Positions 2-34,356 of a stretch of 64,000 bases of DNA are shown piece by piece. The stretch comes from Aeropyrum camini SY1 = JCM 12091 (lineage in GTDB: Archaea; Thermoproteota; Thermoprotei_A; Sulfolobales; Acidilobaceae), in assembly GCF_000591035.1 (NCBI RefSeq), contig NC_022521.1, positions 558,001 through 622,000 of the forward strand, given 5' to 3'. How positions within the stretch are numbered: position 1 is the stretch's first letter; every line of letters starts with the position of its first letter. The notes beneath the pieces were generated by a model, which worked only from the letters and a program-made list of their open reading frames with translations, was not told the DNA's origin and searched no databases. The translations under genes were made by a program, and so were the position numbers.

Positions 2-523
2 ATACTGGTCTACAGCACAGGGGGCCCTAGGCCGGGCAGGTTCATGGAGCTTGATGTGGGGGATTGGGACGAGTCTTACCAGCTGTTGGCGAGGAGCGCT
101 GTGTGGGTGGGCCGTAGGGCTGCGGAGCAGATGGTCGAGAAGGGGTGGGGGAGGATGGTCTACATAGGTAGTGTGACCCTCCTAAGGCCCTGGGCGGATC
201 TCGCCCTCAGCAATATAATGAGGCTGCCTGTTATAGGCGTGGTTAGAACTCTGGCCCTCGAGCTGGCCCCCCACGGGGTGACTGTGAACGCGGTACTACC
301 CAGCCTGATACTGACGGACAGGGTAAGGAGCCTCGCGGAGGAAAGGGCCAGGAGGAGCGGAGTTACTGTGGAGGAGGCGCTTAAGGCTATGGCCTCCAGG
401 ATACCTATGGGGAGGGTCGGCAAGCCGGAGGAGCTTGCAAGTGTCGTGGCGTTTCTAGCCTCGGAGAGGGCCTCTTTCATAACGGGGGCGGTTATACCCG
501 TCGACGGGGGAGCCCATATATAG
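2..523 (+). CDS. SDR-family oxidoreductase, 5' truncated by window edge
   Basis: The reading frame is open from base 2, and the residues before the first ATG (position 44) already look like SDR sequence, so the true start lies before the window. About 173 residues of the C-terminal half are visible. The region after the central strand ends in a segment of the type LELAPHGVTVNAVLP, and the C-terminus (GAVIPVDGGAHI) is typical of FabG-like reductases. The canonical catalytic YxxxK is not seen: that place reads LALSNIMR. A subgroup of crenarchaeal FabG-like proteins shows the same ALSN type motif, so this may be an SDR with altered chemistry. The substrate cannot be inferred. Confidence 0.85.
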   Translation: MLVYSTGGPRPGRFMELDVGDWDESYQLLARSAVWVGRRAAEQMVEKGWGRMVYIGSVTLLRPWADLALSNIMRLPVIGVVRTLALELAPHGVTVNAVLPSLILTDRVRSLAEERARRSGVTVEEALKAMASRIPMGRVGKPEELASVVAFLASERASFITGAVIPVDGGAHI

Positions 524-605
524 CTGGCGTGCCCGCGGGGGTGGCGGCGCCCAAGATTTAACGGCTCCCCGGTAATAAAGAGGGTTTGCGGGGGTACGGG
601 GTTCC

Positions 606-917
606 ATGGTGGAGAGGTACACTTCATACCCGAAGGTGGTCGATGACGTGGATATAGGGCCGCCGTACTTGACCAAGTATGAGCGGGCCCGGATAATAGG
701 GGTCAGGGCCTTCCAGCTCAGCATAGGAGCACCGCCCCTAGTAGACCCCGAGAGGGTGGGCTCTCGGAGACCGCTAGACATAGCCCGCTATGAGGTGGAC
801 AACGGCATACTCCCCGTCTCGATCTACAGGTACCTCCCTGGGGGAGGAGGCCAGTCCCTACCGCTATCCCGTCTTGCGGAGCTGGCTAGGGAGATACTGG
901 GGGGTGAGTACGTCTAG
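606..917 (+). CDS. rpoK: DNA-directed RNA polymerase subunit K (Rpb6/omega homologue)
   Basis: A small subunit of the archaeal RNA polymerase, equivalent to eukaryotic Rpb6 and bacterial omega, which clamps the large subunit and helps assembly. The 103-residue protein carries the family block LTKYERARIIGVRAFQLS at about residues 23-40. The second family block, PLDIARYEVDNGILPVSIYR, is at about 56-75. Length is normal for archaeal RpoK with a short N-terminal extension. The start is the ATG at 606, 82 bp after the SDR gene. The downstream protease gene starts 20 bp after its stop, so the two may be cotranscribed. Assignment is firm. Confidence 0.95.
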   Translation: MVERYTSYPKVVDDVDIGPPYLTKYERARIIGVRAFQLSIGAPPLVDPERVGSRRPLDIARYEVDNGILPVSIYRYLPGGGGQSLPLSRLAELAREILGGEYV

Positions 918-937
918 ACCACTCCAGCCCGGGCCTC

Positions 938-2056
938 GTGGTTGATGCCCGGCTTCAAACGTGTGTTGAGGGTGGTGTAGCGTCCGCCTTGATAGACTGT
1001 GTGGAGATAGTCTCCAGGCATTTCGAGATCCTGGAGGTTAAAAGGGGCGGTGGAAGGCTCGCCGTACACCTAGGGCTACCCCTGAGGGGCGGGGATCTAG
1101 AGGATGTTATGGCCTCTCTCTACAAGGATTTAACGGCTTCAGGCTGCTACCCCTACTTCTCTAGGGAGGAGCTGGGGCTCGTACTCTATATACACAGGCC
1201 CGAGGCGGGGGCGAGGAGGAGGGCCCTCGCTCTGGCCCTCGCCGCCGCCACTCTAGCCACAGTCTACATGTCGGGCCTGGCCCTATCGGACCCCTCCAGA
1301 GGCCTTAGCTGGAGCCCCCTGGCCTATCTAGTCGGCCTGCTATTCCCCCTTCTGGTGCACGAGATGGGGCATTGGATCGTTATGAGGCTTAACAGGGTTC
1401 CAGCCAGCCTCCCATACATGATACCCGCCCCCCCGCTACAGCTAGGGTTCCTGGGGACCTTCGGCGCGGTCATAAACATGAGGTGGCTACCCCCGACTCT
1501 AGACTCTCTAACGGTCATGGCTGTCATGGGGCCTCTGGCAGGGTTCGTCGTTGCGGTGCCGCTGGCGGTGGTTGGCCTGCAGCACAGCCTCCTCCTACCG
1601 CCCCAGGAGGCGGCTGCGAGGGGCGACCTCATAGGCATACCGCTGATGCCGCTGGTAATGCTGCTTCTCGGCGGCGCCCTCGGACTCCCCTCTGACAGGG
1701 TCGTCGTTCTAAGCCCCCTAGCGTTCGCAAGCTATGTAGTATTCATAGTCACATTCTTGAACCTGATACCCGTTGGCATGCTCGACGGTGGCCACATCAT
1801 AAGGGGTGTTGTGGGGGAGCGTATGCACCAGGCTATATCCCTCCTCGTCGTCGTAGCCTCGCTACTGGCCTCGGTTTACATGCCCCAGCTATCGCTATTC
1901 GCCCTCCTAGCCCTCCTCATATACATGATGACGGCCGGCCGCCACCCGGGGGCAGCCATAAAGATATCTGTACCGGGCTGGAGGTCTGTGGCTTCCGCGC
2001 TCATCTACTCGCTGCTACTAGTACTGACCTTCCCCCTCCCGCTCAGCCTCTCGTAG
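938..2056 (+). CDS. M50-family (site-2 protease type) membrane metalloprotease
   Basis: An intramembrane zinc metalloprotease of the S2P/RseP superfamily. The motif HEMGH (His141, Glu142, His145) sits in one hydrophobic segment, and the third zinc ligand is Asp283 in GMLDGGH, in a later segment preceded by NLIPV. About 90 soluble residues precede the first membrane span, and several spans follow to the C-terminus. The proposed start is GTG at 938. The last 52 bp overlap the 3' end of the convergent gene on the other strand. The substrate is unknown; family members release membrane-anchored regulators or clear membrane proteins. Catalytic residues are complete. Confidence 0.9.
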   Translation: MVDARLQTCVEGGVASALIDCVEIVSRHFEILEVKRGGGRLAVHLGLPLRGGDLEDVMASLYKDLTASGCYPYFSREELGLVLYIHRPEAGARRRALALALAAATLATVYMSGLALSDPSRGLSWSPLAYLVGLLFPLLVHEMGHWIVMRLNRVPASLPYMIPAPPLQLGFLGTFGAVINMRWLPPTLDSLTVMAVMGPLAGFVVAVPLAVVGLQHSLLLPPQEAAARGDLIGIPLMPLVMLLLGGALGLPSDRVVVLSPLAFASYVVFIVTFLNLIPVGMLDGGHIIRGVVGERMHQAISLLVVVASLLASVYMPQLSLFALLALLIYMMTAGRHPGAAIKISVPGWRSVASALIYSLLLVLTFPLPLSLS

Positions 2057-29963: not shown

Positions 29964-31121
29964 CTAGACTGCCGCGAACCTCTCCGTCCACTCCTCGTAA
30001 GCCTTAAGCAGCCTGTGGTCGACGCTCGGCCTCCTCCTCTGGAGTATCTCTTTGAAGTCACTCATAGTTATAGGCCTGGGCTCCCCGTCGATCTTACCCT
30101 TCTCGAACAGCTCCCTGACAGTGGCCATGTAGGCCTCCCTCACTATATCTGCAATGTCGCTCCCTGTATACCCCTCTAGCATCTCCGAGAGCCTGTCTAG
30201 GTCGACGTCGCCGGAGAGCCTCAGCTTTCTGGTGTACATCTCCAACATCCTCCTCCTAGTCTCCCTGCTCGGCAGGGGGACGTAGATCCTCTTCTGGAAC
30301 CTCCTTATAAAAGGCTCGTCCAGCTTCCAGGGCTTGTTTGTAGCGGCTATGACGTAAACGTGAAGCCTGCTGCCCTTGTCCTGTATGCCATCCATCTCCT
30401 TTAGGAACTGGTTTCTAACTCTAACCTCGCCCCCCACCTCCGAGCCGTGGACTCCGAGTAGGGCGTCGACCTCGTCTATGAATATTACGACGGGCTTCCC
30501 CTCCTTAGCCTTCTTGCGGGCGTAGTTGAACAGCTTCTTAACGTTCTTCTCGCCCTCACCCAGCCACTTGCTCATGATGTTGGCGGCGTCGACGTAGAGG
30601 AACTCTCCGTCGATCTCGTTGGCCACGGCCGACGCCAGCATAGTCTTACCCGTGCCCGGGGGGCCGTATAGAAGTATCCCCCTAGGCCAGCCCAGGGGGA
30701 AGAGGTCGGGCCTCTTAACCGGGAAGACTATGGCCTCCCTGATAGCCTTCTTAGCCTCCTCCAGCCCCGCTATATCCTCGAAGGTTATGCTGGGCTTTTC
30801 CTTCAACACGAACTCTGGAGCCTCATCACCATCACCACCCCCATCCTCTCCCCTAGTGTCTACGTAGACCTCATCGCCAGACGCCGGTATCATTCTCGCC
30901 TTCCTCTCGAGGTCCTTAGCCTTCTTCCGATACTGGGCTATCAGCCTCCTGTAAATGTGGGCTAGAGGGTAGTCGGGGTAGTTTCTAACAATCTCCGTAA
31001 GATACTCTATAGCCTTGTTAAGGTTGATAATAGCGGACTCGTAGTCCCCCCTCTTCTCCGCGTCAACAGCGGCTAAGGCATACTTCTTCGCGCTACCCTC
31101 CAGGTAGGGCACCGCCCTCAC
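29964..31121 (-). CDS. cdvC: CdvC, Vps4-like AAA ATPase of archaeal cell division
   Basis: Disassembles ESCRT-III-like filaments in Cdv division. An N-terminal MIT domain (about residues 7-80, three-helix pattern AEKRGDYESAIINLNKAIEYL) binds CdvB. A linker precedes the AAA+ domain with Walker A GPPGTGKT and Walker B VVIFIDEVDAL, then the second region of homology with arginine fingers (PFIRRFQKRIYVP). Length 385 is normal. The start is GTG at 31121. It sits 48 bp downstream of cdvB on the same strand, the standard cdvB-cdvC order. CdvA is not in this window. Confidence 0.95.
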   Translation of the reverse strand: MRAVPYLEGSAKKYALAAVDAEKRGDYESAIINLNKAIEYLTEIVRNYPDYPLAHIYRRLIAQYRKKAKDLERKARMIPASGDEVYVDTRGEDGGGDGDEAPEFVLKEKPSITFEDIAGLEEAKKAIREAIVFPVKRPDLFPLGWPRGILLYGPPGTGKTMLASAVANEIDGEFLYVDAANIMSKWLGEGEKNVKKLFNYARKKAKEGKPVVIFIDEVDALLGVHGSEVGGEVRVRNQFLKEMDGIQDKGSRLHVYVIAATNKPWKLDEPFIRRFQKRIYVPLPSRETRRRMLEMYTRKLRLSGDVDLDRLSEMLEGYTGSDIADIVREAYMATVRELFEKGKIDGEPRPITMSDFKEILQRRRPSVDHRLLKAYEEWTERFAAV

Positions 31122-31168: not shown

Positions 31169-32011
31169 CTAGCCTGGGGAGGCCTCTCTGCCTGATGCAA
31201 TGCGTATGAGACCCTTCTGCTGGAGCCTTCTAAGGGATTTTATGATTTCCTCCTTCTCCACGCCTAGCTCGGCTGCTATCTTGCTTATCCTCACCACTCC
31301 ACCGCTCCTCTTGACGTAGTCGTAGACCCTCTGGTCTATATCGTCGTCCCCACCCTTTCCACCCACGATCCGCTCGGGGTCGGGGACGAGGTCGTCGACC
31401 TCCCTGCTGACCTCGCTCAACACCCTCCTTATCTCCCTCTTTATCTCAGGGTCTAGCTCCACAGTTGCGGCTGGGACGGGTATGTTGTTTACTGTAAGCG
31501 CCGTAGACCTCACCACCCTCTCGGTCGACTGCACAATGCTAGTTAGCCTCGCCGCTATCTCGGGGCTTGTAGCCGCTAGGTACTCGTCCATAGCCCTCAT
31601 GGCGAACTCGAGAGGCGCCAGCGCCTTGGCAAGGGATTCTATGCTCCTGGCGTCCTGTATCCTCACTATGGCCAGCTCGATAAGCCTCGAGTACATTGTT
31701 AGAGCCTTTAGTATCCTCTTCTTCAAAACGATCTCGGCCGCGTGTATATGTAGGGCATCGTAGTCCCTCCTCCTAGCGGCGTCCAGCATTTTGTCGTAGA
31801 ACCTGTTTATCTCCGCTAGCACAATGTTCTTCATGGAGTCGACTTCCGTCTTTGTAAGCTGAAGCCTAGCCAGTATCTCGTCGTAGTCTACACCCTCCTC
31901 TCCATAACCAGTTTGATGCCCGGCCTTACCGCCCGGGCCCCATCCTATTATGCCGAGCCTCCTGACTATGTCTATAACCACTTCATGCTTCACCCCGAGC
32001 TTCCGCCACAT
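31169..32011 (-). CDS. cdvB: CdvB, ESCRT-III-like division protein with C-terminal winged helix
   Basis: ESCRT-III-like polymerising protein of archaeal cell division. The helical core (from about VDSMKNIVLAEINRFYDKML) carries long amphipathic helices. A Pro-rich linker with ELDPEIKREIRR may hold an MIT-interacting segment, and the C-terminal winged helix (DDDIDQRVYDYVKRSGGVVR onward) would bind CdvA. An earlier ATG exists at 32104, but a TATA-like gattatatgt at 32025-32034 lies between the two. ATG at 32011 (281 residues) is therefore preferred on a leaderless or near-leaderless mRNA. Confidence 0.88.
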   Translation of the reverse strand: MWRKLGVKHEVVIDIVRRLGIIGWGPGGKAGHQTGYGEEGVDYDEILARLQLTKTEVDSMKNIVLAEINRFYDKMLDAARRRDYDALHIHAAEIVLKKRILKALTMYSRLIELAIVRIQDARSIESLAKALAPLEFAMRAMDEYLAATSPEIAARLTSIVQSTERVVRSTALTVNNIPVPAATVELDPEIKREIRRVLSEVSREVDDLVPDPERIVGGKGGDDDIDQRVYDYVKRSGGVVRISKIAAELGVEKEEIIKSLRRLQQKGLIRIASGREASPG

Positions 32012-32024
32012 CTTTAGGGGTGCC

Positions 32025-32034
32025 ACATATAATC
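32025..32034 (-). promoter_or_regulatory. TATA box for cdvB-cdvC
   Basis: The minus-strand sequence gattatatgt is centred about 19 nt before the ATG at 32011. This spacing implies transcription start at or very close to the initiator codon. It is the main argument for the shorter CdvB. The weak point is that the centre-to-start distance is a little shorter than the usual 25 nt, so GTG at 31993 could also serve. Confidence 0.45.
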
Positions 32035-32159
32035 TCGGGCAGGGTGTGTAAGACCCTGTAATTACCCGAAAGCCGCTGAACCATGTTACAGAGCCGCTCC
32101 ACATCTAGGCCGGAGTACTCTCCAGCCCGGGCCTACCCGCCGCTACCGCCAGCTAGACC

Positions 32160-32927
32160 TCACCTCTTCACAGCAACAAGGCCGAGCGCCCTCCTCCTAA
32201 AACCGAGGACCTCGAACCCAGCCTCTCTTAGGAGCCTAGCCACCCTCCCAGGAAGGTTCAGCCCCCTAATCCTCCCGGGCTCACCTGTATAGTGGAAAAG
32301 CCTGCCGCCTCTCCTAAGAACTCTGTGGAACTCTTTGTAGAGGTCCATGGTGTAAAGCCTGCTTGTCGACTTTGAAAACCTTGGGGGGTCGTGTATGATA
32401 GCGTCGAAGACAGAGTCCCTGAAGATGGAGACAGTCTCCACAGCGTCTCCAAGCACAACTCTTACCCTGCCATCCCTAAGGCGGTAGCTCCATGGGTTGA
32501 TAGAGGCCAGCTGGAGCACGACCTCGTCCACCTCAACCGTATAGACGAGCGAGGCTCCCCTATCTAGTGAGGCTACCGCAGTGTACCCTAGCCCGGTGCA
32601 CACGTCGAGCACCCTGAACCCCCTTTTCACAACTAGGGAAGACTTCGACGCCGCATCCCTCCAGGGATCGACGTCCACAACCCTATGCATGTGAATCCCG
32701 TTTATCTCAAGAGTAGGAGGCTTCCCACCGGGTAGGGGGACGAGCTTGTAGTATGAGCCTCTGTACGCCTCAGCAGCACCTACAAAGCCATGGCCATCCA
32801 CGATGGCCATGCTCCTTCCGCCGAGGGATGCTGCGTGCTCGTCGACAACGAACCTAGACCCCCCAGTTGACAGGATGGCCTCGCCGTCTCGACACTCTAC
32901 CTCAAAAACTAGACTACCCACTCTCAC
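32160..32927 (-). CDS. SAM-dependent methyltransferase (Rossmann), start uncertain
   Basis: A class I methyltransferase with motif I VLDVCTGLGYTAVAS and the acidic motif II end VYTVEVDE. The post-motif DAIIHDPPRFS resembles DPP(Y/F) in nucleic-acid or N-methyltransferases, and LLREAGFEVLGFRRRAL is near the end. It was considered as CdvA because it lies upstream of cdvB, but these methyltransferase motifs rule that out. The first standard start codon is GTG at 32927. However, open frame with typical Aeropyrum codons continues upstream to about 33121 (see finding), so the true N-terminus may be longer and begin with a non-standard codon or be spliced. The substrate is unknown. Confidence 0.8.
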   Translation of the reverse strand: MRVGSLVFEVECRDGEAILSTGGSRFVVDEHAASLGGRSMAIVDGHGFVGAAEAYRGSYYKLVPLPGGKPPTLEINGIHMHRVVDVDPWRDAASKSSLVVKRGFRVLDVCTGLGYTAVASLDRGASLVYTVEVDEVVLQLASINPWSYRLRDGRVRVVLGDAVETVSIFRDSVFDAIIHDPPRFSKSTSRLYTMDLYKEFHRVLRRGGRLFHYTGEPGRIRGLNLPGRVARLLREAGFEVLGFRRRALGLVAVKR

Positions 32928-33136: not shown

Positions 33137-33210
33137 CTCGCCTGATACAATGTTTAACGCTTAAAATCATAGGCGATAACCCCTTAAACCGGGGTAGGAG
33201 GGCGACTACA

Positions 33211-33378
33211 TTGAAGAGACTAGTCTACTCTAGGGAAGAGGAGGAAGAGGAGCTCTGGGAGGAAGAGGAGGAGGAAGAGCTGGAAGAGGAGGAGTTTTTC
33301 GACGAGGAGGAGCTAGAGGAGCTTGAGGAAGAGGAGGAGCTCTGGGAGGAGCTTGAGGAGGAAGAGGAGGAATTATAG
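33211..33378 (+). CDS. Poly-glutamate small acidic protein, 55 residues
   Basis: The frame starts with TTG (33211) after the purine block ggtaggagg (33194-33202, about eight bases of spacing). It encodes MKRLVYSRE followed by runs of Glu broken by Leu, Trp, Phe and Asp, and ends in EEL. About two thirds of the residues are acidic. There is no hydrophobic core of normal type; a charged helix with Trp and Leu at regular positions (ELWEEE appears twice) is likely. It has its own promoter-like region, is shorter than most gene callers accept, and lies in a spacer. It could be a binding partner for basic proteins such as DNA-binding or ribosomal proteins. Function is unknown. Confidence 0.6.
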   Translation: MKRLVYSREEEEEELWEEEEEEELEEEEFFDEEELEELEEEEELWEELEEEEEEL

Positions 33379-33465: not shown

Positions 33466-34356
33466 ATGCGAAGGCCACTCTGGGATACAGCCGTGTCTTC
33501 ACTATTGGGGTACGCCCTTGCGTACACCGCCAGCCTGCTGTTTGCAGTGTCTGACGTGCTCGTTAGAAAGGCGTCGAGGGATATAAGCCCGGTCGGCATA
33601 CTGTTTCTCTCCCTAACCTCAGGCATACCGAGCCTGGCTGTTGCGGCGCTGCTTCTGGGAGAGCCTCCCCTCCCCGGGGTGGAGTACCTCATTCTATACT
33701 GTATCATAGGGGCCGGCCACTTCTACTTCGGAAGACTCTTCTTCTACACGGCAGTAGCCGGTCTGGGAGCGTCTAGCGCGGCAATTATAGTGTCCGCCAC
33801 ACCCATGCTCTCCAGCCTCCTGGCTGTGCTGCTTCTAGGGGAGGCTCTAAGGCCCCAAGTACTAGCAGCTCTAATCCTGGTCACCACAGCAGCCTACATA
33901 GCGGCGAGAAACCCGTCGGGACGGCCGCTCCAGAACGTTAGCCGTACGAGAGCAGTACTTGCAGCGGCCGCGGCCACCATGATATTCGCCTCCACAACGG
34001 TGGCGGTTAGATGGATCGGGTTCCACGCTGACTCCCCGATAACGGGGGTAATAGCCTCCTACACGGGGGCCTACCCTCTTGCCTTGGCCACGGTCGAGCT
34101 CAGAAGGGTCTCGTGGGGAAGGCCAGCCCTCTACACAGCACTCGCCGCAGGCGTTGTGGTCGCTTTCGCCCAGGCGTCTAGATACTCCTCGCTAGAGCTA
34201 ATACCCGTGCCTGAGGCCTCCGTGCTCTTCGGTCTATTCCCAGTAAACACTGCTCTCATATCGGCGGTTGTAGGGGGAGAGGATGAGAAGCCCTCTAAAA
34301 AACATGTTTCAGCGGCGCTGATGTCGGTTGCGGCCGTAGCCCTAATGTTCTCATAA
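33466..34356 (+). CDS. EamA/DMT-family transporter
   Basis: A ten-helix drug/metabolite transporter-like protein made of two five-helix EamA repeats. The first repeat opens with LLFAVSDVLVRKASRDISPVG and the second with MIFASTTVAVRWIGF, each with the conserved polar pattern after the first helix. The C-terminus has the typical VAALMSVAAVALMF ending. Likely exports or imports a small metabolite; the substrate is unknown. The start is ATG at 33466. It is convergent with the metallophosphoesterase gene. Confidence 0.87.
   Translation: MRRPLWDTAVSSLLGYALAYTASLLFAVSDVLVRKASRDISPVGILFLSLTSGIPSLAVAALLLGEPPLPGVEYLILYCIIGAGHFYFGRLFFYTAVAGLGASSAAIIVSATPMLSSLLAVLLLGEALRPQVLAALILVTTAAYIAARNPSGRPLQNVSRTRAVLAAAAATMIFASTTVAVRWIGFHADSPITGVIASYTGAYPLALATVELRRVSWGRPALYTALAAGVVVAFAQASRYSSLELIPVPEASVLFGLFPVNTALISAVVGGEDEKPSKKHVSAALMSVAAVALMFS

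Follow-up and report, generated by a model that had tools for sequence, protein, structure and literature searches.

A phylum-wide archaeal family of glutamate- and tryptophan-rich micro-proteins recurrently encoded upstream of ABCE1

The 64,000-nucleotide stretch of Aeropyrum camini SY1 = JCM 12091 DNA that we analysed (the window) contains a short open frame whose translation is dominated by glutamate. The locus raises the question of whether such a frame is a gene and, if so, what its product could work with. The frame and its surroundings are laid out as follows.

29964..31121, minus strand: CdvC (Vps4-type AAA ATPase) gene; its homologue in L027 matches the AAA, Vps4_C and MIT models
31169..32104, minus strand: gene for a presumably CdvB-like (ESCRT-III) protein, so assigned from gene order; a homologue lies in a contig titled Aeropyrum sp.
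32160..32927, minus strand: class I SAM methyltransferase-like gene, divergent from the micro-gene and adjoining it in many members of the window's family
33160..33167, plus strand: TATA-like element CTTAAAAT, recognised by consensus resemblance; the nearest relative has the same sequence across this stretch
33197..33202, plus strand: Shine-Dalgarno-like GGAGGG, 8 nt 5' of the TTG and conserved in the nearest relative
33211..33378, plus strand: Glu-Trp micro-protein gene, 55 aa, TTG start, stop TAG, supported by frame conservation and purifying selection
33466..34356, plus strand: EamA-family transporter gene, directly 3' of the micro-gene and its neighbour in 6/6 genus members

When the sequence was re-read, the frame, its coordinates and its TTG start agreed with the first-pass annotation, as did the two ELWEE units (at residues 14 and 43), the purine-rich Shine-Dalgarno-like block and the TATA-like element. 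Both signals fall within the best-conserved part of the upstream region common to the nearest relative, and a 5' leader of about 20 nt is predicted from the TATA-like element. Glutamate is indeed the dominant residue, although "almost entirely glutamate" was somewhat strong wording for a share of 64%. The 55 residues include 35 Glu, encoded by 27 GAG and 8 GAA codons, 8 Leu besides the TTG start, 2 Trp, 2 Phe and 1 Asp, and the net charge is about -33. AlphaFold2, given the window protein with two orthologues, predicted a single long helix (residues 2-54, mean pLDDT 88), which we judged uninformative since all-acidic helices of this kind are easily over-predicted.

The micro-protein frame was open in all six genus members, 5' of the EamA gene, and the length differences between these orthologues are whole codons. 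An excess of synonymous over non-synonymous changes between species had been proposed as a check, and it was observed on two scales. Against the nearest relative, 10 of the 11 substitutions were synonymous and one was non-synonymous, while 17-31% synonymous would be expected without selection (P from 2e-7 to 6e-5, with the transition bias varied from 1 to 8). Across the phylum, 28 close pairs gave pS 0.73 and pN 0.021 when pooled, values which are descriptive, some of the pairs having sequences in common. This corresponds to 252.6 synonymous and 55.4 non-synonymous changes, or 82% synonymous against 12% expected without selection. Selection acts on the protein. Orthologues without an open frame or with frame-breaking indels, which the first-pass annotation had named as signs of a mere repeat, were sought in the relatives and none were found. 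The periods reported by Tandem Repeats Finder were mostly weak and conflicting, so the micro-gene is not a simple GAG expansion; together with the nearest-relative substitutions and the pooled selection test, this rules out a simple repeat. Low-complexity DNA that is open by accident would also be purine-rich, weakly repetitive and under the usual size limits, as this frame is, but the share of synonymous changes, the conserved Shine-Dalgarno-like and TATA-like elements, and the presence of roughly a single locus in each genome, with its neighbours conserved, speak against it. That reading is already refuted by the selection test and we give it next to no credence. The window frame is almost certainly a gene of a real family, a selected small gene, kept open in the genus, of the sort that annotation easily misses.

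The first-pass annotation had treated the peptide as a local curiosity. Instead, the window protein represents a family that spans the phylum and whose members are short, strongly acidic peptides bearing Trp, Phe or Leu. A strict search with a DNA pattern for EEEE-x-W-[DE]3 covered 229 genomes of the window's class, 122 of them good, and matched 135 of the 229 and 78 of the 122, nearly always in one place. The reversed pattern, used as a control, gave almost no matches, which puts the occurrence of the motif above chance. A looser pattern recovered 29 more among 41 pattern-negative good genomes, with a Glu/Trp ORF at each of the 29 loci. The micro-protein is thereby present in at least 107 of the 122 good genomes, at about one locus per genome, and it recurs outside the class in many other families of the phylum, Thermoproteota, most of which it spans. 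In two genomes, G034 (C7 and C45) and G052 (C1 and C10), the pattern lies on two contigs each, reflecting a second copy or a mixed assembly. By pattern search, a method by which absence is weak evidence, the micro-gene seems to be missing from f18, f54, f34 and f5 and, within f1, the family of the window, from some genera. One f18 protein with a predicted membrane stretch (L229) ends in APIEEEWEEEEI, and a stand-alone micro-gene was not found in that family.

Family members are about 21-90 aa long and consist nearly entirely of Glu/Asp and Trp/Phe/Leu, commonly ending in ...EEEW or ...EEEF. Over 132 members, whose start sites were set by a simple rule, the composition is 65% Glu and 12% Trp, followed by D, F and L. 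The C-terminal residue is hydrophobic in 108 of them (W 83, F 18, L 3, I 2, Y 1, V 1) and the remaining 24 end in E. The predicted member at locus L098 reads MVFEEDWEEEFEEFEEEEDWEEEEDWEEEW, and extreme members such as MLEEEWEEEWEEEEWEEEEWEEEW are built from four letters. No match at the curated cut-off was obtained in Pfam (best 11.2 bits against 25) or NCBIfam (best 14.7 against 24), HMM libraries that cover low-complexity families poorly. No PDB chain matched the one family member searched (L089), and a literature search returned nothing on a Glu-Trp micro-protein family. We therefore call the family previously unnamed, and new in the sense that we could assign it to no known family or system, although one may exist. 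On viral contigs, the pattern matched mostly larger unrelated proteins and two candidate micro-ORFs. Small Glu/Trp ORFs on contigs L243 and L261 (MEEEEEWEEEDWEEEWEEEEEE; MKTKEEEWEEEEWEEEEEEE) are possible viral relatives, and many IMG/VR contigs (L233, L235, L239-L242, L244 and others) encode a protein of about 182 aa with a C-terminal EEEEWEEEEA.

In f1 the micro-gene is flanked by the methyltransferase-cdvBC block and a radical-SAM/UPF0004/TRAM gene (here called MtaB), with which it is convergent in most members. We consider EamA a lineage-specific neighbour and do not think it a functional partner. The first-pass annotation had pointed to the nearby division genes, but a special link with them was not supported: cdvBC adjoins the micro-gene only within the window's own family, a local association. 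Partnership with the Cdv (ESCRT) division machinery, or with the methyltransferase alongside, would fit the divergent arrangement in many members of f1, but the block is away from the micro-gene in two of the six genus members (G007, G008), and in the examined loci of other families cdvBC was not beside it. Gene order in the genus and in other families rules out a division-cluster partner as the general function, and we regard such a partnership as very improbable. Separately, a CRISPR-like array (repeat GAATCTAACCAATAGAATTGAAAG) lies fairly near the methyltransferase gene in G008 (L046, about 1000-1500).

The phylum-wide recurrent neighbour of the micro-gene is the gene for the ribosome-recycling enzyme ABCE1, together with TFS and CGI-121: in many loci the micro-ORF is directly upstream of ABCE1, or beside TFS-ABCE1 or CGI-121. 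A phosphoribosyltransferase and a thermosome gene also occur in neighbourhoods of this type, along with TFS and CGI-121. To avoid sampling bias, we sampled from the ABCE1 side. ABCE1 was located in 130 genomes, and 80 upstream regions, chosen regardless of the micro-gene, were read. The scan gave 32 same-strand flags in 18 of 33 families. One flag (L353, f3) was an ordinary Glu-rich C-terminus and not a micro-ORF, and one genuine micro-ORF (L354, also f3) lay 1,370 bp away in a longer stretch and was excluded. Of the 80 ABCE1 genes, 30, spread over 17 of the 33 families, were thus preceded on the same strand by the micro-gene at a distance of up to about 700 bp; in 18 of these 30 the gap to the start of the ABCE1 match was 41-136 bp. 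Given about one micro-gene per roughly 1.8 Mb genome, chance would yield only about 0.03 of 80. The window's own genome does not have the micro-gene next to ABCE1 (L292); in f3 it is divergent from TFS-ABCE1, and elsewhere TFS may stand between the two. Several ABCE1-bearing lineages appear to be without the micro-gene, so ABCE1 can work without the micro-protein. An acidic-Trp tail fused to the ends of ABCE1 was sought in the lineages of this kind that were read, and none was seen. The ABCE1 of genus g95 (f24; L346 of G250, 2-1174, minus strand) carries a large, intein-like insertion in its Fe-S region, in an open frame of 924 aa.

How could this position be explained? Successive acidic residues in a nascent chain can cause its translation to be discontinued (PMC9718836), and the micro-ORF could accordingly be a cis-acting leader, in which poly-Glu translation destabilises the ribosome and couples ABCE1 expression to recycling capacity. 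With the poly-acidic leader peptides of intrinsic ribosome destabilization it shares an acidic run upstream of a gene, here often that of a translation factor, and the frequent spacing of 41-136 bp before ABCE1 would suit such a role. A same-strand gene directly downstream is found in many lineages, but the micro-gene is convergent with MtaB in most of f1 and divergent from TFS-ABCE1 in f3, so overall the layout is not that of a leader. The gene is also kept before EamA in the genus, with no ABCE1 behind it, or has TFS in between, and selection keeps its residues, including the Trp positions, which acid content alone would not need. A leader function is in our view improbable.

The role of acidic ligand, mimic or chaperone suggested by the first-pass annotation is still plausible. 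In its general form the micro-protein would be a nucleic-acid mimic or chaperone, with Glu carboxylates standing for phosphates and Trp/Phe for bases, and would keep basic surfaces soluble or unoccupied on targets such as OB-folds, ribosomal proteins, Alba/Cren7-type proteins or RNA polymerase. The family composition and the C-terminal aromatic of most members fit this, as does survival of the gene away from ABCE1. SSB, T7 gp2.5 and RPA partners have acidic-aromatic tails that compete with ssDNA, in which an acidic run with a terminal or embedded aromatic binds OB-folds; those tails and motifs are parts of larger proteins, while here they would be the whole protein. Such a general role, however, leaves the repeated position before ABCE1 in 17 families unexplained, and we hold it to be a serious contender, yet on balance unlikely.

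Our preferred mechanism, held tentatively, is an acidic-aromatic peptide that acts in trans with ABCE1 and the small ribosomal subunit. The phylum-wide position before ABCE1 points to a role near ribosome recycling. The gene also persists where ABCE1 is not a neighbour, in some lineages without any same-strand target, and this argues that the micro-protein acts in trans. Operon proximity to ABCE1 is not physical contact, and we infer the expression of the micro-protein, its binding to ABCE1 or the 30S subunit and its effect on recycling. The aromatic residues of the peptide would anchor it, with electrostatics holding it in place, to a basic surface on ABCE1, on the 30S subunit to which ABCE1 is bound, or on both, and it would there modulate ribosome splitting or the later release of ABCE1. 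A comparable action is ascribed to the acidic SWD(D/A)E repeats at the N-terminus of eukaryotic eIF3j/Hcr1.

The eIF3j N-terminus is said, by Kratzat et al. in 2021, to contact ABCE1. Hcr1 helps ABCE1 in recycling, possibly via its ATPase (PMC7196836), and eIF3j has been seen together with ABCE1 on 43S complexes (PMC10175282). The yeast eIF3j chain has 265 residues, begins with three SWD(D/A)E repeats (SWDDE, SWDAE, SWDAEEEE) and has a basic stretch. Like these repeats, the two ELWEE units of the window protein set Trp in an acidic context, a compositional match that may reflect convergence. eIF3j is linked to ABCE1 function, and for the micro-protein gene order suggests such a link. Yeast eIF3j also has a folded, helical dimer core, for which neither the 55 residues of the window protein nor the length range of the family leaves room; the micro-protein would correspond to the acidic-aromatic part, without statistically supported sequence homology to eIF3j. 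We consider it rather doubtful that the micro-protein is a stand-alone Glu/Trp recycling factor of Thermoproteota, ancestrally encoded just ahead of ABCE1, that fulfils the function of the eIF3j N-terminus and is possibly connected with its origin. LysW/ArgW are likewise small acidic proteins, and some family members (L105-L107) have an EDWGE-like stretch, but the window protein has no Cys, no zinc ribbon and no C-terminal EDWGE. In f36 a small zinc-ribbon-like protein that resembles LysW (L115, L222, L223) carries a Glu/Trp stretch as its tail, and in L218 this stretch follows a different Cys-rich domain.

These results describe a protein family in which two or three residue types make up most of the chain. 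It is close to universal in an archaeal class and strongly selected, and the searched libraries hold no model for it. The results also show that simple DNA patterns, combined with selection tests, can recover small low-complexity genes. If the micro-protein works with ABCE1, it would be an added factor in archaeal ribosome recycling, would bear on the origin of the eIF3j N-terminus and would offer a minimal natural acidic-aromatic ligand to study.
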